Source of the DNA: Sphingomonas suaedae
GTDB lineage: Bacteria > Pseudomonadota > Alphaproteobacteria > Sphingomonadales > Sphingomonadaceae
Reading direction: 5' to 3'
Length of the DNA stretch: 64,000 bases
Assembly: GCF_007833215.1 (NCBI RefSeq)
Contig: NZ_CP042239.1
Coordinates: 372,001-436,000 of the forward strand
Below, piece by piece: positions 11,234 through 41,144 of this stretch. The position numbers were made by a program, and so were the translations under genes. The notes under the pieces were generated by a model. The model did not search any database. It was not told the DNA's origin and saw nothing but the letters and a program-made list of their open reading frames with translations. How positions within the stretch are numbered: the first letter of the stretch is position 1; every line of letters begins with the position of its first letter.

Positions 11234-13042
11234 ATGGCAACCGACCTTTCCCGTATCCGCAATTTTTCGATCATCGCGCATATCGACCATGGCAAGTCGA
11301 CGCTGGCCGATCGGCTGATCCAGCGCACCGGCGGGCTTACCGCGCGCGAGATGAGCGAGCAGGTGCTCGACAATATGGAGATCGAAAAGGAGCGCGGCAT
11401 CACCATCAAGGCGCAGACCGTGCGCCTCGACTGGAAGGGGCCGGACGGGCTCGATTACGTCCTCAACCTGATGGACACGCCGGGGCATGTCGATTTCGCC
11501 TATGAGGTGAGCCGGAGCCTGGCGGCGTGCGAGGGCGCGCTGCTGGTGGTGGATGCCGCGCAGGGGGTCGAGGCGCAGACCCTCGCCAATGTCTATCAGT
11601 CGATCGAGCACGACCATGAGATCGTGCCGGTGATCAACAAGATCGATCTGCCCAGCGCCGAACCCGAAAAGGTGCGCAACGAGATTGAGGAGGTGATCGG
11701 CATCGACGCATCGGGCGCGGTGCTCGCCTCGGCCAAGTCGGGCATTGGCATCGACGAGATCCTGAACGCAGTGGTGGAGCGCATCCCGGCGCCAAAGGGT
11801 AATCCGGATGCCCCGCTCAAGGCAATGCTGGTCGACAGCTGGTACGACCCCTATCTGGGCGTCGTCATCCTCGTCCGCGTGATCGACGGCACGCTGAAAA
11901 AGGGCCAGCAGGTCAAGTTCATGCAGAGCGGCACCACGCATCTGGTGGACCGCGTCGGCTGTTTCCGGCCGAAGATCGAACAGCTTGCGGACCTTGGCCC
12001 CGGCGAGATCGGCTTCATCACCGCTCAGATCAAGGAAGTGGCGCAGGCGCGCGTCGGCGACACGCTGACCGATGCGAAGAAGCCCGCAGTCGAAGCATTG
12101 CCAGGCTTCAAGGAAGTCCAGCCAGTGGTGTTCTGCGGCCTGTTCCCGGTCGATGCCAATGATTTCGAGAAATTGCGCGAAAGCATCAGCAAGCTGCGGC
12201 TGAACGATGCCAGCTTCAGCTTCGAGATGGAGACATCGGCGGCGCTCGGTTTCGGCTTCCGTTGTGGGTTCCTCGGCCTGCTGCACCTGGAGATCATCCA
12301 GGAACGGCTGATGCGCGAGTACGACCTCGACCTGATCACTACCGCGCCGTCGGTGGTGTACCAGATCGAGCTGACGCATGGCGGCGGGCATATCGAACTG
12401 CACAATCCCGCCGACATGCCCGAGCCGAACAAGATCGAGAGCATCGCCGAACCGTGGATTCAGGCGGTGATCTATGTCCCCGACGAATATCTCGGATCGA
12501 TCCTGAAACTGTGCCAGGACCGGCGCGGGATCCAGAAGAACCTGACCTATGTCGGCGGGCGCGCGCAGGTGACCTATGAACTGCCGCTCAATGAGGTGGT
12601 GTTCGATTTTTACGATCGGCTGAAATCGCTCTCCAAGGGCTATGCCAGCTTCGATTATGAACAGATCGGCTATCGCGAGGGCGATCTGGTCAAGATGGGC
12701 ATCCTCGTCAACGAAGAGCCGGTCGATGCGCTGAGCATGATCGTCCACCGCGCCACTGCGGAAGTGCGCGGCCGCGGCATGGTCGAGCGATTGAAGGAAC
12801 TGATCCCGCGCCATCTGTTCAAAATCCCGATCCAGGCGGCGATCGGCGGCAAGGTGATCGCGCGCGAGACGATCAGCGCGATGCGCAAGGACGTGACCGC
12901 CAAATGCTATGGCGGCGACGCAACGCGCAAGCGCAAGCTGCTGGACAAGCAGAAAAAGGGCAAGGCGAAGATGCGCGAGTACGGTTCGGTCAGCATCCCG
13001 CAGGAAGCGTTCATCGCTGCGCTGCGGATGGGCGAGGAATAG
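11234..13042 (+). CDS. lepA: elongation factor 4 (ribosomal back-translocase)
   Basis: LepA/EF4 is a translational GTPase that acts on stalled or mistranslocated ribosomes. At 602 residues it is standard length. G1 is AHIDHGKST (about residue 17), G3 is DTPGHVDF (about 81) and G4 is NKID (about 135). The family-specific C-terminal domain ends with a Lys-rich stretch ([15 protein letters not shown]) and the SIPQEAF motif. A structured RNA with a strong terminator follows immediately, so transcription probably ends at about 13,176. Confidence 0.98.
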
Positions 13043-13052
13043 GAAAAAAAGG

Positions 13053-13176
13053 GCGCGTCAGAAAGCGACCGTGGAACGCATCGGCGAACCCGGGCATTCA
13101 ATGGCCATGCGGTGACGCATCATCCCCTGAGCCTTTACGGGGCGCCGGGCCGAACAGGCCCGGCGCCCCCTTTTTT
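13053..13176 (+). ncRNA. candidate structured RNA, copy A (3'UTR sRNA or leader)
   Basis: About 124 nt starting 10 nt after the lepA stop. The outer stem GCGTC (13055-13059) / GACGC (13114-13118) and inner ACC/GGT pairs (13068-13070 with 13111-13113) enclose a variable middle. A C-rich linker (CATCCCCTGA) then leads to a perfect 13-bp terminator stem and a T tract. The same layout, with the two GCGTC/GACGC halves spanning exactly 64 nt, recurs at 15712-15839 despite a different interior. I read it as a repeated sRNA or regulatory RNA family. I cannot name an Rfam family. Confidence 0.6.
13139..13176 (+). terminator. strong Rho-independent terminator after lepA
   Basis: A perfect 13-bp GC stem (13139-13151 with 13157-13169), a 5-nt loop GAACA and six T residues at 13171-13176. 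It terminates lepA and RNA copy A. Confidence 0.93.
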
Positions 13177-13257
13177 GTTCGGCGCGGCAGGGATATGCGT
13201 GGAACCTGCGCGAATGCTGGGGCATTTGTCCGCCCAAGGGGGCATTTTCGTTTCACC

Positions 13258-15087
13258 ATGCCGGACCAGGCTTTTGCAATCGCGCTGATCGGGGCGCTCG
13301 GAATCGGCGCACAATGGGTTGCATGGCGCACCGGCTGGCCGGCGATCGCGCTAATGCTTGCTGCCGGCGTGATCGCCGGGCCGGTCACGGGATTGATCGA
13401 TCCCGAGCATGTCTTCGGCGAACTGCTGGAGCCGATGGTCTCCATCGCCGTCGCGCTGATCCTGTTCGAAGGCGGGCTCAGCCTCAACCTGCGCGAGTTG
13501 CGCAAGACCGAGGGCGCGGTGACACGCCTCGTCGTGCTGGGCGTGCCGATCGGTTGGGCGCTTGGTGCGCTCGCCTGCTATTATGTCGCAGGACTGGTCT
13601 GGCCGGTCGCGATCCTGTTCGGCGGGATTCTCGTGGTCACCGGTCCCACGGTAGTGATTCCCTTGCTGCGCCAGAGCAATGTCGCGGCCCGGCCGCGAGC
13701 GATCCTCAAATGGGAAGGCATCGTCAACGACCCCTTCGGGGCGCTGTGCGCGGTGCTGACCTACGAGTATCTTCGCCGGGCGGGCGAAGGCGCGACCCTG
13801 TTCGAGGTGACTCTCGCGCTGGTCGGGGCGGTCGTGATCGCCGGACTGATCGGATATGGCGCCGCGCGCGCGGTGGCCTGGGCCTTTCCGCGCGGATATG
13901 TCCCGGAATATCTCAAGGCGCCGATCCTGGTCGTCGCGGTGATCGGCACATTTGTCGGATCGAATGCCATCCAGTCGGAAACCGGGCTGTTCGCAGTCAC
14001 CCTGTTCGGCATCGCGCTCGCCAACATGCACCTCGACAGCCTGCGCGACATCCATCCGTTCAAGGAGAATGTGACCGTCCTGTTGATTTCGGGCGTGTTC
14101 GTTATCCTGTCCGCGTCGCTCGATTTCGATGCCGTGCGTCAGTTCGAATGGCGCTTCCTCGCCTTCCTCGCGGCGATCCTGTTCCTCGTCCGCCCCGCGA
14201 CGGTGTTGCTCAGCCTCGCCTTCAGCCGCATTCCGTGGAACGAGCGGCTGCTGATCGCATGGATCGCGCCGCGCGGCATCGTCGCGGTCGCGATCTCGGG
14301 CCTGTTCGCGCTGCATCTGCGGGAGTTGGGCTATAGCGACGGCGGCATCCTGGTCAGCCTGTCGTTCCTGATCGTCACCGGCACCATCCTCGCGCACGGG
14401 TTCAGTATTCGCCACGTGGCGCGCTGGCTCAAGGTGACGGGCGCCGAGAAACAGGGGCTGCTGCTGGTCGGCAGCACCAGCTGGAGCCTCAAGCTCGCGG
14501 AGCAGCTTCGCCAGCTCGAGGTGCCGGTGACCATCGCAGACGCGAGCTGGCAGCGGCTGACCCCTGCGCGTCAGGCCGGTATCCCGACCTTCCATGGCGA
14601 AATCCTCGCCGAAACGACCGAGGATCAGCTCGACATGAGCCAGTTTCAGGTGCTCGCCGCGACCTCGACGAACGAGGCTTATAACGCCCTGGTCTGCACC
14701 GAGTTCGCGCCCGAGATCGGCCGCGATTCGGTCTATCAGCTGGGGGATGCGAGCGACGACGATCCGCGCAGCCTGCCCGAAAGTCTGCGCGGGCGCGCGA
14801 TGTTCGCGTCCGGCCTGGGCGTCGAGGAAATTCTGGAGCGCGAGGCGCAGGGCTGGGAATTTCGCAAGACCAAGATCGGCGAGCATTATGATTTCGAGAG
14901 CGCCAAGGCGGCGCTTCCGGAGGGCGGTGACATGCTGATGCTTGTGCGCAAGAATGGCAGTCTGCGGTTCTTCACTCATGCGTCGCGACCGACGCCACAG
15001 CCGGGCGACACCGCGATTTCCTTTGGCCCGCCGCGAAAGCGCGCGGCCCGGAAGAAGAAGGAAGAGGTGACAGGGGAAGCGGCATGA
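13258..15087 (+). CDS. cation:proton antiporter, CPA1/NhaP-type with cytoplasmic nucleotide-binding-like domain
   Basis: Inner-membrane Na+(K+)/H+ exchanger. About twelve hydrophobic segments fill residues 1-400. The antiporter signature regions GGLSLNLREL (about 75), KWEGIVNDPFG (about 155, with the essential Asp) and WIAPRGIVAVA (about 335) are visible. A TrkA-N-like cytoplasmic domain occupies residues 400-590 (LLLVGSTSWSLKLAEQL), followed by a Lys/Arg-rich tail. At 609 residues it suits this subclass. The ATG at 13258 is chosen because everything upstream in frame is the terminator region. It overlaps the OmpA gene by 4 bp. Confidence 0.9.
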   Translation: MPDQAFAIALIGALGIGAQWVAWRTGWPAIALMLAAGVIAGPVTGLIDPEHVFGELLEPMVSIAVALILFEGGLSLNLRELRKTEGAVTRLVVLGVPIGWALGALACYYVAGLVWPVAILFGGILVVTGPTVVIPLLRQSNVAARPRAILKWEGIVNDPFGALCAVLTYEYLRRAGEGATLFEVTLALVGAVVIAGLIGYGAARAVAWAFPRGYVPEYLKAPILVVAVIGTFVGSNAIQSETGLFAVTLFGIALANMHLDSLRDIHPFKENVTVLLISGVFVILSASLDFDAVRQFEWRFLAFLAAILFLVRPATVLLSLAFSRIPWNERLLIAWIAPRGIVAVAISGLFALHLRELGYSDGGILVSLSFLIVTGTILAHGFSIRHVARWLKVTGAEKQGLLLVGSTSWSLKLAEQLRQLEVPVTIADASWQRLTPARQAGIPTFHGEILAETTEDQLDMSQFQVLAATSTNEAYNALVCTEFAPEIGRDSVYQLGDASDDDPRSLPESLRGRAMFASGLGVEEILEREAQGWEFRKTKIGEHYDFESAKAALPEGGDMLMLVRKNGSLRFFTHASRPTPQPGDTAISFGPPRKRAARKKKEEVTGEAA

Positions 15088-15710
15088 AGCGATTGGCGAG
15101 GACTGCTATTATCCTGGGGGCGACCGCGCTGCTGACCGCGTGCGACCCGCCGGCGGGAAATGCGATCGCGGTAAACGAAGTGACGGCGCCGGAACGCGCC
15201 GACGATACCGTAGCAAACAGGGCAGATGCCGATGCGGCAAAGTCGATCCTGCGCCCGGTCGAGGATGAGGTCGCGCCACCCGAACCGCCCCCGGTCGAGC
15301 CGGTCTCGCTCACGATTTCCTTTGCCGATCGCGGTATAACGCTCTCCGATGATGCCAAAACCGCGCTTGATGGCCTGATCGCGGCACCGGCTATGGTCAC
15401 AGGCGGAGCGATCACGCTGCGCGGCCATAGCGACAGCCGCGGCCATGATGGCGACAATCTGGTGGCGTCACGTCGCCGCGCCGAGGCGGTCGCCGACTAT
15501 CTGCTCGAAAAGGGCGTGCCGCGTGAGCGCATGACGGTGATCGCGCTCGGCGAGAACCGGCCGGTCGCGCCCAATGCGAAGCCCGATGGCTCCGACGATC
15601 CCGAAGGACGCGCCCGCAACCGCCGGGTGGAAGTGGAGGTCCAGCCGCCGCCCGTTCTCGAGGCCGGGGAAGACGCACCAATCTCCAACGCCGCGACGGC
15701 GGAGGAGTGA
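15084..15710 (+). CDS. OmpA-family outer-membrane lipoprotein
   Basis: A 208-residue lipoprotein with lipobox LTAC (Cys20), an acidic and Pro-rich linker (about 50-75), and a C-terminal OmpA-like peptidoglycan-binding domain (about 80-190). That domain carries the signature region from GHSDSRG through N-x-x-x-S-x-x-R-A to the N-R-R-V-E-V-E-V ending. This is the Pal/YiaD pattern: anchored in the outer membrane and bound to the wall. The ATG overlaps the antiporter stop (ATGA), so the two are co-translated. RNA copy B begins one base after its stop. Confidence 0.88.
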   Translation: MKRLARTAIILGATALLTACDPPAGNAIAVNEVTAPERADDTVANRADADAAKSILRPVEDEVAPPEPPPVEPVSLTISFADRGITLSDDAKTALDGLIAAPAMVTGGAITLRGHSDSRGHDGDNLVASRRRAEAVADYLLEKGVPRERMTVIALGENRPVAPNAKPDGSDDPEGRARNRRVEVEVQPPPVLEAGEDAPISNAATAEE

Positions 15711-15711
15711 T

Positions 15712-15839
15712 GCGCGTCAGAGTCTGACCGTGGCGGCGCGGGCGCAACCTTCCCACAAACGGGGCGTGCGGAGACGCATTCATCCCCTCCTGAACTCCAC
15801 GGGGCGCCCCGGGCTTTAGGCTCGCGGCGCCCCGCTTTT
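15712..15839 (+). ncRNA. candidate structured RNA, copy B (3'UTR sRNA or leader)
   Basis: About 128 nt directly after the OmpA stop. It begins with the same GCGCGTCAGA as copy A and has GCGTC (15714-15718) pairing with GACGC (15773-15777), again spanning 64 nt. CCG (15728-15730) can pair with CGG (15769-15771). The interior differs from copy A. The C-rich linker here is CATCCCCTCCTGAA, which includes an anti-Shine-Dalgarno-like CCCCTCCT. A GGGGCGCC-based terminator closes it. The promoter is unknown; it may be processed from the upstream mRNA. Confidence 0.6.
15800..15839 (+). terminator. Rho-independent terminator after the OmpA gene
   Basis: A 9-bp perfect outer stem (15800-15808 with 15826-15834), an inner GC helix around a TTTA loop, and a short T tract at 15836-15839. 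Confidence 0.85.
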
Positions 15840-15944
15840 CATGTGCCTGTCCCCTAGGTGCATGAGAAGCGGGCGTTAACCCTTTTACCTGGCCTTAACC
15901 CTGTAGGCGTAGGCGGGGGGAAGGCTGATTGAGGGGACTTCGCC

Positions 15945-17840
15945 TTGCGCATTCTGATCGTGGACGATGAGCCGGGGATGCACGACTCCTACCGCCAGTG
16001 CTTCAAGAGCCGGGGCGCGGGGGGCGGGCAGGGTGCCGCACTGGACGCAATGGCGGCTGAATTGTTTGGCGACGATGACGCGGCGCCGGTTGCCGAGAGC
16101 GAGACGGTCGCGTTCGAGCCTGTCCATTGTATGCAGGGCCTCGACGGCGTCGAGGCCGTGGCGCGCTCGATCGAGCGCGGCGAGCGGTTCGCCGTCGCCT
16201 TTATCGATGTGCGGATGCCGCCGGGCATCGATGGCAAGGAAACCGCCAAGCGCATCCGCGCGCTCGATCCCGATATCAATCTGGTGATCGTCACCGGCTA
16301 TTCCGATTTCTCCCCGCTCGAAATCAGCCGCGACGCCGGTCCCGCCGACAAGATCTTCTACATCGCCAAGCCGTTCCAGGTCGAAGAGGTCGTCCAGACC
16401 GCGACCGCGCTGGGCAAGCGCTGGCAGGTCGATCTCGAACTCGCCCAGGCGATGGCCCTGCTTGAGGAGCAGAAGGCCGAACTGGCCGCGAATGAGAGCA
16501 AGGCGACGCATCTCGCCAATCACGACAGCCTGACCGATGCGCCCAACCGGCTCGCCTTCATGCGCGCGTTGACCGATCATGTCCGCGGCCCCGAGACGTT
16601 CGCGATGGCGATGATGGATCTCGACCGGTTCAAGCTGGTCAACGACACGTTCGGCCATCTCGCCGGCGACGAGCTGATCCGCATGGTGTGCGACACGATC
16701 GAGGGCGCAGTGCCGCCGGGCGGCTTCGTCGCGCGGCTGGGCGGCGACGAGTTCGCGGTGCTGATGAAGGTTCCGGGCGAAGGCGCAGCGGTCGAGGCGG
16801 TCGAGAAGCTGCTGAGAGCCTGCGCCACCACCTTTACCGTATTCGGCCATTCGGTTCAGGGGTCGGCTTCGGCTGGGCTGGTCGTTGTCCCGCCGGGAAT
16901 GCAGCATGATCCGATCGACGTAATGCGCCGCGCCGATCTGGCGCTCAATGAGTCGAAGAAATCGGGTCGCGGCGTGGTGCGCGTGTTCGATGAGAGCATG
17001 GACGAATCGATCCGCTTCCGGCGCCAGATCGAGGGCGGCCTGTCCAAGGCGATCGCCAATGGCGAACTGCGGCTGGTGTTTCAGCCGATCGTCGCGCGCG
17101 AAAAGCTGGAAATCGTCGCTTTCGAGGCGCTGTTGCGCTGGAAGAGCCCCGAATATGGCAACATCTCGCCCGCCATGTTCATTCCGATCGCCGAGGAATC
17201 GAACCTGATCCACGAGCTGGGCGACTGGGTGATCGACGAGGCGCTTGAGATGCTCCAGCAATGGCCGGGGCAATATGTCTCGGTCAATTTCTCGCCGCGC
17301 CAGTTTCGCCGCCAGAATTTTGTCGGCCATGTCGTCGAGCGGGTGCAGCGCGCCGGGATCGAGCCGCACCGCGTGCAGATCGAAATCACGGAGACCGCGA
17401 TCTTCGACAATGCCGAGCGCGCCGCCGACACCCTCTATCGCCTGCGCCAGATGGGCTTTCGCATCGCGCTCGACGATTTCGGTACCGGCTATTCGTCGCT
17501 CTACAATATCCGCAAATTCGCGCTGGATTGCCTCAAGATCGACCGCAGCTTCATCGACGGGATGGGCAAGGAGCGCGAGAGCGCAGCGATCGTCCATTCG
17601 ATCATCCATCTCGGCCGTGCGCTGGGGCTGGAGGTCGTCGCCGAGGGCGTCGAGACCGAAGCGCATCTCCAGGCGCTCCGCCTCGCCGGATGCAGCCATT
17701 ATCAGGGCTATTATCTCGCCCGCCCGCTGGAAGCCGATGTCGCGACCGAAGTCGCGCATGAGCGCTATATGGCGCCGGACGAGATCGAACCGGCCGCCGA
17801 ACCGCTCGTCGCGATGGCAGGCAACGGCACGCAAGGGTGA
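15945..17840 (+). CDS. REC-GGDEF-EAL response regulator (cyclic-di-GMP signalling)
   Basis: A 631-residue cytoplasmic regulator. A receiver domain with acidic pair D7-D8 and likely phospho-acceptor Asp88 is followed by a GGDEF domain (intact GGDEF at 266-270) and an EAL domain (EAL at 394-396, with the DDFGTGYSS and E-x-V-A-E-G-V-E motifs intact). Both synthesis and hydrolysis of c-di-GMP look chemically possible. The receiver carries an insertion of about 30 residues before the phospho-Asp. Start: a TTG with GAGGGG 9 nt upstream; no closer ATG exists. It overlaps the kinase gene by 4 bp, so the two form a cognate pair. Confidence 0.9.
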   Translation: MRILIVDDEPGMHDSYRQCFKSRGAGGGQGAALDAMAAELFGDDDAAPVAESETVAFEPVHCMQGLDGVEAVARSIERGERFAVAFIDVRMPPGIDGKETAKRIRALDPDINLVIVTGYSDFSPLEISRDAGPADKIFYIAKPFQVEEVVQTATALGKRWQVDLELAQAMALLEEQKAELAANESKATHLANHDSLTDAPNRLAFMRALTDHVRGPETFAMAMMDLDRFKLVNDTFGHLAGDELIRMVCDTIEGAVPPGGFVARLGGDEFAVLMKVPGEGAAVEAVEKLLRACATTFTVFGHSVQGSASAGLVVVPPGMQHDPIDVMRRADLALNESKKSGRGVVRVFDESMDESIRFRRQIEGGLSKAIANGELRLVFQPIVAREKLEIVAFEALLRWKSPEYGNISPAMFIPIAEESNLIHELGDWVIDEALEMLQQWPGQYVSVNFSPRQFRRQNFVGHVVERVQRAGIEPHRVQIEITETAIFDNAERAADTLYRLRQMGFRIALDDFGTGYSSLYNIRKFALDCLKIDRSFIDGMGKERESAAIVHSIIHLGRALGLEVVAEGVETEAHLQALRLAGCSHYQGYYLARPLEADVATEVAHERYMAPDEIEPAAEPLVAMAGNGTQG

Positions 17841-39523: not shown

Positions 39524-40285
39524 TCATTCCCGCCAGCTGGTATCCACCCGATCCACCAGCCGCACCATCGCCGCGAAATCCGCCGCGCCCGGCCCGCCCG
39601 GCACCTGCGCCATGTGCAGATCGCGCTGGTGCACCGCGACCACCTCCGGCGACACGGTCAGCGGCTTGCCCATCGACAGCGTCGCCAGCTGGATCTCGCA
39701 CGCGCGCTGCAGTGACCAATGCTTGATGAACGCCTCGGGCAAGGTCCGTCCCATCGCGACGATGCCATGGTTGCGCAGCAGCAACATGCGCTTGTCGCCG
39801 AGATTGGCGACCAGCCGCTCGCCCTCCTCGTCGCGAACAGTCACCCCCTCGAAATCATGATAGGCGATCTGCCCCGCGAAATTGCACGCATAGAAATTGA
39901 TCGGCTGCAACCCGCCTTCGAGGCTCGAAACTGCCATCCCCGCCGTGGTGTGCGTGTGCATGATGCAATGCACATCGGGCAAATTGCGGTGGAACACCGC
40001 ATGCTGGACGAACCCCGCGCGGTTGACCGGATAGGGGCTGTCGCCGAGCTTGTTGCCGTCAATGTCGATCTTGACCAGGTTCGACGCCTTCACCTCGCTG
40101 AAATGCAGTCCGAACGGGTTGATCAGGAACGCGTGATCCTCCCCCGGCACCTTCAGCGTGATGTGGTTGTAGATCATCTCGGACCAGCCGAGGTGATCGA
40201 ACACGCGATAGGCGGCGGCAAGCTGCTGGCGCGCCTCCCACTCGGCGTCATTCATCGTGCGGGGTGCGACAGCGGCGGTGGCCAT
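39524..40285 (-). CDS. class II aldolase/adducin-family protein
   Basis: A 253-residue member of the class II aldolase/adducin family. It shows YNHITLKVPG (about 38), HTHTTAG (about 113, zinc His pair) and LLRNHGIVAMG (about 176, third His), so metal binding looks intact. Family members include fuculose-phosphate aldolase; the relatives with this layout are uncharacterised. GGAGAGG lies before the ATG at 40285. The gene is convergent with the carboxylase alpha gene, and the 227 bp between them hold only a TTGTCAGTTTTGTCAG tandem heptamer that I can see. Confidence 0.85.
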   Translation of the reverse strand: MATAAVAPRTMNDAEWEARQQLAAAYRVFDHLGWSEMIYNHITLKVPGEDHAFLINPFGLHFSEVKASNLVKIDIDGNKLGDSPYPVNRAGFVQHAVFHRNLPDVHCIMHTHTTAGMAVSSLEGGLQPINFYACNFAGQIAYHDFEGVTVRDEEGERLVANLGDKRMLLLRNHGIVAMGRTLPEAFIKHWSLQRACEIQLATLSMGKPLTVSPEVVAVHQRDLHMAQVPGGPGAADFAAMVRLVDRVDTSWRE

Positions 40286-40383
40286 GATCCTCTCCATTTT
40301 TCGTGGTTGCGGTATGTATGCCATGAGGTGGCGGGGGTCGGCAACTTGCGTTGCGCGGAGAGGCAGGCTAGGGGCCGTGCCAG

Positions 40384-40498
40384 TCATCTGGGGAGTAGCC
40401 AGCCGTCTTCGGACGGGCCTTCGCGTCAACATACTTGGTCGAGAGGCCATGGCGCGAAGGGGATGCCGCACATCGCGGTGCTCGGGCGAGACCAATGG
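40384..40498 (+). promoter_or_regulatory. yybP-ykoY manganese riboswitch
   Basis: The three conserved blocks of this Mn2+-sensing riboswitch are present in order: GGGGAGTAGCC (40390-40400), GTCAACATACTTGG (40425-40438) and GAGACC (40488-40493), with helices in between. The next protein gene in this direction is a TMEM165/GDT1 family transporter, a known target class for Mn efflux. A GC-rich hairpin (about 40500-40540) between aptamer and start may be the expression platform. It has no T tract, so translational control is likelier than termination. Confidence 0.92.
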
Positions 40499-40574
40499 CG
40501 CCACGCTTTCCGTCCGGCCGGGCGGGAAGGTGTGGTGTCGTTGGAGTTTCGCATCGCCCGGCCCGGAGACTATC

Positions 40575-41144
40575 TTGGAACCCTTCCTCACCTCCACCGC
40601 CGTGGTCGCGCTCGCCGAAATCGGCGACAAGACGCAGCTGCTCGCGATCCTGCTGGCGACGCGGTTCAAGCGGCCGCTGCCGATCGTCGCGGGCATCCTC
40701 GTCGCGACGCTCGCCAATCATTTCCTCGCGGCGCTGGTCGGGCAACAGGCCGCTGCGCTGCTGGAGGGGACGTGGTTCCGCTACCTGATCGCCGCATCCT
40801 TCATCGCGATGGCGGCATGGACCCTGGTCCCCGACAAGATCGACGATCTGGAGCACAAGCCCGCCCGCTTCGGGCCGTTCCTGACCACCACCATCGCTTT
40901 CTTCCTGGTCGAAATGGGCGACAAGACCCAGATCGCGACCGTCGCGCTCGGCGCGCGCTTTGTAGAGGTCGGTTGGGTTACGCTCGGTACGACGCTGGGA
41001 ATGATGCTCGCCAACGTGCCTGCCGTGTATCTGGGCAATGAGCTGGTACGGCGCGTGCCGATGCGCACCGTGCGGATCGTTGCCGCGTCGCTGTTCCTCG
41101 CCCTTGGCATCTGGCTACTCGTCCAGACGCTTTCGGGCGGCTAG
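40575..41144 (+). CDS. TMEM165/GDT1 (UPF0016) family manganese exporter
   Basis: A 189-residue inner-membrane protein with six TM helices and the two signature motifs of the family: ALAEIGDKTQLL (about residue 13) and LVEMGDKTQIA (about 112). Family members export Mn2+ or exchange Ca2+/Mn2+ for protons. I choose the TTG at 40575, with GGAG 7-10 bp upstream, because the first TM begins right after it and the sequence upstream is riboswitch. The riboswitch makes Mn induction likely. Confidence 0.9.
   Translation: MEPFLTSTAVVALAEIGDKTQLLAILLATRFKRPLPIVAGILVATLANHFLAALVGQQAAALLEGTWFRYLIAASFIAMAAWTLVPDKIDDLEHKPARFGPFLTTTIAFFLVEMGDKTQIATVALGARFVEVGWVTLGTTLGMMLANVPAVYLGNELVRRVPMRTVRIVAASLFLALGIWLLVQTLSGG

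Follow-up and report, generated by a model that had tools for sequence, protein, structure and literature searches.

Paired elements flanking an antiporter-ompA gene pair in Sphingomonas suaedae as candidate members of an undescribed, lineage-specific small RNA family

In the present work, we examine two paralogous elements, called copy A and copy B, that lie in a 64,000-nucleotide (nt) stretch of the Sphingomonas suaedae genome (the window; positions 372001-436000 of G000:C1, where G000 is the organism's own single-contig genome of 4.15 Mb). Copy A follows lepA and precedes an antiporter gene, while copy B follows a gene for an OmpA-like protein and precedes a GGDEF-EAL gene. We will argue that the two probably belong to a lineage-specific, as yet undescribed family of terminator-ended candidate small RNAs (sRNAs) of about 125 nt, which may act in trans through an anti-Shine-Dalgarno sequence. 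The features, in window coordinates, are as follows; R1 and R2 are covariance models described below.

11234-13042, + strand: lepA (EF-4), upstream of copy A (TIGR01393, 954.1 bits)
13053-13176, + strand: copy A, with the short linker UCCCCUGA (sequence; R1 110.3 bits, R2 100.6 bits; in both training sets)
13057-13069, + strand: GUC-N7-GAC of copy A, a possible 5' hairpin, H1 (pairing in 93.9% of cells across the 11 copies, without covariation)
13107-13120, + strand: AUGCG-GUGA-CGCAU of copy A, a possible local GNRA-type hairpin, H2 (core pairable in 11 of 11 copies, no covariation)
13123-13130, + strand: C-rich, anti-Shine-Dalgarno-like linker UCCCCUGA of copy A (TCCCCT invariant over 11 copies)
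13139-13176, + strand: intrinsic terminator of copy A, 13-bp stem and U tract (consensus scan; stem 13139-13169, then tail)
13258-15087, + strand: Na_H_Exchanger antiporter, between the copies (PF00999, 122.6 bits; TrkA_N slightly below cut-off)
15084-15710, + strand: OmpA-like protein, upstream of copy B (PF00691, 55.5 bits)
15712-15839, + strand: copy B, with the long linker UCCCCUCCUGA (sequence; R1 123.5 bits, R2 108.8 bits; in both training sets)
15716-15728, + strand: GTCAGAGTCTGAC of copy B, H1 and also a DNA dyad (with the following CG, the sole exact site in the genome)
15766-15779, + strand: GUGCG-GAGA-CGCAU of copy B, a possible local GNRA-type hairpin, H2 (alignment and folds)
15783-15793, + strand: anti-Shine-Dalgarno-like linker UCCCCUCCUGA of copy B (sequence)
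15801-15839, + strand: terminator stem GGGGCGCC/GGCGCCCC of copy B with the short tail GCTTTT (sequence; two compensatory cells in relatives; missed by the consensus scan)
15875-15908, + strand: promoter-like block GTTAACCCTTTTACC..CTTAACCCTG, outside the RNA, between copy B and the next gene (also in element-less relatives, by eye)
15945-17840, + strand: Response_reg-GGDEF-EAL protein, downstream of copy B (PF00072, PF00990, PF00563)

Both copies start with GCGCGTCAGA, and GACCGTGG begins 14 nt past the first base. The distance from GCGTC (13055 in copy A) through the end of GACGC (13118) is 64 nt, and the span in copy B is identical. After GACGC there follows CATCCCCT in A and CATCCCCTCCT in B, and then the GGGGCGCC/GGCGCCCC terminator. 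This pairing of blocks, pointed out in a preliminary description of the locus, can be read directly in the sequence, as can the anti-Shine-Dalgarno-like stretch that it noted in copy B of these terminator-ended RNA candidates. Its statement that a C-rich linker and a terminator close each copy holds by sequence for both, although the consensus terminator scan called the terminator of A and not that of B, whose U tract is short; over the region that scan gave two matches, no excess over shuffles (mean 1.9). The placement is as described, with A starting 10 nt past the lepA stop codon and B 1 nt past that of the OmpA-like gene, the antiporter ATG (13258) 81 nt past A and the GGDEF-EAL gene's TTG (15945) 105 nt past B. 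Pfam matches bear out the antiporter, OmpA and c-di-GMP neighbours.

The model R1 was built from five copies (A, B and those of genomes G030, G026 and G274) and searched in 295 genomes of the genus. It gives 11 places of at least 61 bits (range 61-127) in nine genomes, namely the five training copies and six new ones, while the next best place scores 35 bits. Since this search used stricter Infernal filters and the best 11 candidates per genome, weak copies were possibly missed in the 255 genomes outside the second search. That search employed R2, rebuilt from all 11 copies, on 40 genus genomes; it recovered the identical 11 places (88.5-125.5 bits), with every other place at 36 bits or less. 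Because the 11 copies trained R2, what this search adds is the score gap and the fact that no further copy appeared. Some R1 match at E<=0.01 occurs in 63 genomes, nearly all of the weak kind. Six matches of at most 36 bits that we inspected are terminators only, and a third match in G000 (1852475, 28.3 bits) is a terminator without the conserved blocks. The resemblance of A and B is thus clearly above the background of the genus genomes, and the covariance-model search that the preliminary description had proposed finds the element kept in some relatives.

All nine carriers are among the 11 genomes with the closest GGDEF-EAL proteins (at least 84% identity). A strict core pattern run over 397 genomes of the family, of which 11 are of the same genus and which mostly do not include the known carriers, matched four, with genuine elements in G000 and G234 only; in the other two, G404 and G579, the rest of the element is missing by eye. 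A plain DNA search of 61 genomes (best 14 candidates each) found long matches beyond G000 only in G030 and G026, and short partial ones in G032, G042 and G050, of which that in G032 is not the element on inspection.

Over the 11 copies, TCCCCT and UGCGG.GACGCA (motif UGCGGWGACGCA) are invariant, and GACCGTGG is exact in nine. The conserved C-rich stretch can be written UCCCCU(CCU)GA: seven copies carry the long linker UCCCCUCCUGA and four the short UCCCCUGA (A, G234, G280b and G289; final letters tell apart two copies in one genome). A terminator-like stem with a T-rich end is present in all 11. RNAalifold proposes a short 5' hairpin (GUC/GAC), the local hairpin [G/A]UGCG-GWGA-CGCA[U] and the terminator. 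Every cell with letters is paired in the last two and 93.9% in the first, the alignment gaps being the outermost base of the local hairpin in G241 and two terminator bases in G280b. The A/U variation at the second position of the local-hairpin loop is allowed by a GNRA loop.

The preliminary description had read GCGUC/GACGC as the stem of a conserved fold, and this part cannot be upheld. Including its inner helix, the long-range stem has 97.3% of cells paired, with 0 covarying pairs and a score equal to the shuffle mean; neither this stem nor H1 or H2 beats its own shuffles in covariation, and some slid controls score higher. The GACGC of copy A (13114-13118) falls inside H2. When each sequence is folded singly, GACGC joins the local hairpin for six copies (B, G026, G241, G234, G280a, G289), pairs long-range for three (A, G273, G280b) and does neither for two (G030, G274). 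The covariation analysis that had been suggested gives compensatory changes solely in the terminator, one cell (one sequence) in each of two of the eight pairs. With covariation confined to the terminator and the folds mixed, what is conserved is the primary sequence together with the terminator, and the fold of the 5' half is variable among single-sequence predictions. Two other candidates were rejected. An antiterminator pairing CCCC/GGGG is ruled out by G280b, whose terminator has lost GGGG while the C-rich linker persists, so that partnering in an antiterminator is not the sole reason for keeping CCCC. A small open reading frame (ORF) in copy B (ATG CGC GTC AGA GTC TGA) has an ATG that is absent from every other copy.

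Conservation of primary sequence could also mean that the element works as DNA, for instance as a dyad operator GTCAGA-N-TCTGAC or as a duplicated repeat. The dyad is perfect in six of the 11 copies, but it is lost in A, G234, G280a, G280b and G289, and the terminator is always attached. Moreover, five tested carrier genomes each contain a single exact match to the 15-mer, which is absent from G257 and G114; the dyad is therefore not a dispersed operator. We regard a DNA-level role as extremely improbable.

Eight copies precede the GGDEF-EAL gene (B, G030, G274, G273, G026, G241, G280a and G289) and two the antiporter gene (A and G234, with the G234 antiporter start recognised by DNA). With 10 of the 11 copies 5' of one of these two genes, and a terminator ahead of the gene, a cis-acting leader or attenuator of the GGDEF-EAL and antiporter genes has to be considered. 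However, the GTTAACCCTTTTACC..CTTAACCCTG block comes after the terminator. By eye it is common to element-less relatives, being found in G257, G114 and G234, all without the element at that place, and a similar block is seen in more distant relatives (30 loci); it may be a promoter. In G274, moreover, the spacer between element and GGDEF-EAL gene exceeds that of G273 by about 205 nt. With this block intervening and the G274 spacer lengthened, the element is probably not a GGDEF-EAL leader. The copy G280b has neither gene downstream: it follows an MFS_3 gene and faces a gene for an ScfRs-type regulator, an unrelated locus, which means that the element can occur apart from the GGDEF-EAL gene. 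No conserved competing antiterminator pairing was found. A cis leader, one of the two options of the preliminary description, is thus disfavoured and in our view very unlikely, whereas the other, an sRNA derived from a 3' untranslated region (3' UTR), is plausible in G000. The extra spacer in G274 is a palindrome-rich stretch (L022:5700-5890), possibly of the REP (repetitive extragenic palindromic) or MITE (miniature inverted-repeat transposable element) type.

Seven copies follow a same-strand gene, which is lepA in two cases and otherwise a gene for the OmpA-like protein, a TPR protein, a globin-like protein, a 270-aa ORF without Pfam match, or the MFS_3 protein. Six of these begin at -2 to +10 nt relative to the end of the upstream stop codon, and G280b at +139 nt. 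Such a position would suit a conserved 3'-UTR or terminator cassette that terminates and stabilises the mRNA of the upstream gene without acting in trans, and so would the confinement of compensatory changes to the terminator and the lack of a recognised promoter, the latter being a weak test. A plain terminator, on the other hand, needs no invariant UGCGG.GACGCA and UCCCCU blocks or near-invariant GACCGUGG, and four copies have no same-strand upstream gene. We consider this explanation unlikely, while giving it some weight.

No Rfam family reaches its gathering cut-off over A or B. In a permissive scan, RF00519 (SuhB/MmgR, the alpha-R8 family; cut-off 41 bits) scores 27.2 bits on A and does not list B; otherwise that scan gave chance-level matches only, and RF02344 (ar14) scores just 15.3 bits on the minus strand at 15615-15725. 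The element could nevertheless be a divergent alpha-R8 member, a homologous sibling sRNA. By eye the 3' layout of hairpin, C-rich stretch of about 17 nt and terminator is common to both, RF00519 lists eight of the 11 copies at E<=1, and for A, G234 and G289 this is the third-best place in the genome. A Rho-independent 3' terminator, as in alpha-R8, is predicted in all 11 copies, with a short T tract in B. Yet the best score is 28.9 bits, below the cut-off and like that of other weak places and of control genomes (13 of the 14 ring genomes, one over the cut-off), and B, G026 and G280b are unlisted. The core 10-mer UUUCCUCCCU, as defined in the available part of PMC12559287, is absent, the elements reading CAUUCAUCCCCU(CCU)GA, and the SuhB of G000 also departs from it (CAUCCUCUCCUAAAC). 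Further differences are the elements' own 5' half and their mostly tight position behind stop codons. Finally, a genuine SuhB above the Rfam cut-off occurs in each of the 16 genomes examined (in G000 at 3103019-3103094, 49.4 bits), and the elements coexist with it in one genome. The element therefore resembles SuhB/SisA-type sRNAs in its predicted anatomy of hairpin, C-rich anti-Shine-Dalgarno single strand and intrinsic terminator, whereas its score and 10-mer do not place it in alpha-R8; we take homology to be decidedly unlikely. In the part of PMC12559287 that is available, alpha-R8 is described as having several siblings per genome in many genera and as including Caulobacter SisA-D.

A second SuhB-like RNA of G000 was also observed (G000:C1:2505073-2505151, L183), with 38.9 bits against the cut-off of 41 and a strong TTGAAG-17-TATACT promoter match; the same promoter scorer as used below gives it 6.85 against a 95th percentile of 5.75. 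Ten look-alike loci, its own included, were found by eye. Like the elements it has a hairpin, UCUCCUCCCUGAACCUU and a terminator, and CCUGAAC is common with copy B, a point for the alpha-R8 sibling; unlike them it has the promoter match and a different 5' part. The 3' halves of SuhB and this RNA read hairpin, CAUCCUCUCCUAAACCUUU or GUCUCCUCCCUGAACCUUGG, terminator, compared with CAUUCAUCCCCUCCUGAACUC and terminator in the element. The alpha-r14 or 'cuckoo' RNAs (e.g. NfeR1) similarly carry anti-Shine-Dalgarno motifs in unpaired regions. According to the accessible part of PMC10746234 they have three hairpins, each with CCUCCUCCC, while A and B have one UCCCCU(CCU)GA stretch.

The evidence points, in our judgement, to the lineage-specific sRNA family, which we hold to be fairly likely. 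The upstream transcript would supply the RNA as its 3' end in most loci (7 of 11), lepA for A and antiporter-ompA for B; the RNA would be released by processing or made from an unrecognised promoter. Its invariant UCCCCU(CCU)GA could then pair in trans with purine-rich Shine-Dalgarno sequences, perhaps together with a chaperone, and block translation in the manner of alphaproteobacterial SuhB/MmgR-type sRNAs. In Sphingopyxis, SuhB with Hfq lowers thnR translation (PMC6563040, available in part), and SisA represses mRNAs, including those of TonB-dependent receptors, via the anti-Shine-Dalgarno 10-mer (available part of PMC12559287).

Several observations weigh against this sRNA family. The promoter scores of A and B (4.3 and 4.2) lie below the background median of 4.65, and of all 11 copies five exceed the median and none the 90th percentile (5.45). 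Upstream of the terminator no pair changed on both sides in the 11 copies, and with the terminator removed A and B are no more stably folded than shuffled sequences (z +0.50 and +0.87; range over the copies +0.87 to -2.07). The upstream ORF is divergent at four of the 11 loci (G274, G273, G026, G289), where a 3'-UTR origin thus fails. The model search and reading of the loci show the element to be absent from the close relatives G257 and G114, and it is therefore dispensable. Duplex energies of the linkers over 48 predicted ORFs of the window are only slightly better at start regions than in coding interiors (medians -14.45 vs -12.2 kcal/mol for A, -13.5 vs -11.4 for B); shuffled linkers reach -13.3 and -13.2 (standard deviation 0.9), so that the real medians are within about 1.3 standard deviations. 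This preference is small and generic, as expected of any anti-Shine-Dalgarno string. It is important to note, as regards the promoter, that the same scorer gives the genuine SuhB of G000 just 5.1-5.45; because it also fails to single out that promoter, its silence is weak evidence and a real promoter could be missed.

Neither the duplex ranking of the 48 window ORFs nor the complement searches identified a specific target. The GGDEF-EAL start ranked 4th with the B linker and 25th with the A linker, with the start misplaced at 15978 instead of 15945 and the antiporter start missed. The 13-mer AGGGGATGAATGC has 154 places with at most two mismatches, against 12 for the reversed control, an excess that is generic because the string is a Shine-Dalgarno sequence plus start codon. 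The 12-mer complement of the B linker has 15 one-mismatch places besides itself, and the control five. In G274, a divergent TonB-type receptor gene (L119:1870-4905; start region L022 5380-5420) has a start region, CTCCAGGGGGGATG, complementary to the element's CAUCCCC, and is a possible candidate target.

The arrangement in G030 is lepA, one copy, GGDEF-EAL. This copy resembles A in the middle (23/32 vs 11/32 for B) and in the hairpin-linker segment (21/21 vs 18/22), and B at the 5' end (22/22 vs 18/22 for A) and after the linker (8/13 vs 4/11). This pattern would agree with two flanking copies having recombined and the antiporter-ompA genes having been lost in the process, a question that 125-nt sequences and a weak gene tree cannot settle; the tree is likewise too weak for ordering gains and losses of the element. 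One may also imagine a mobile-like 3'-end sRNA cassette that lands or duplicates behind stop codons and turns host 3' UTRs into anti-Shine-Dalgarno regulators, with paired copies serving as recombination points for gaining or deleting antiporter-ompA, a scenario that we regard as rather doubtful.

Elsewhere in the window, a yybP-ykoY Mn2+ riboswitch lies at 40375-40555 on the + strand (53.9 bits), before or inside an ORF frame (40257-41144) that reads AEIGDKTQ...EMGDKTQ and that we take to be UPF0016/GDT1-like.

No description of the element was found in the part of the open-licence literature covered by the search results, where the SuhB of Sphingopyxis is the only sphingomonad sRNA found described. 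If our interpretation is true, the element represents a young family, restricted to one clade and having two linker types, that exists beside SuhB and a second SuhB-like RNA. It would then illustrate the multiplication and specialisation of anti-Shine-Dalgarno sRNAs, for which it supplies a defined set of loci.

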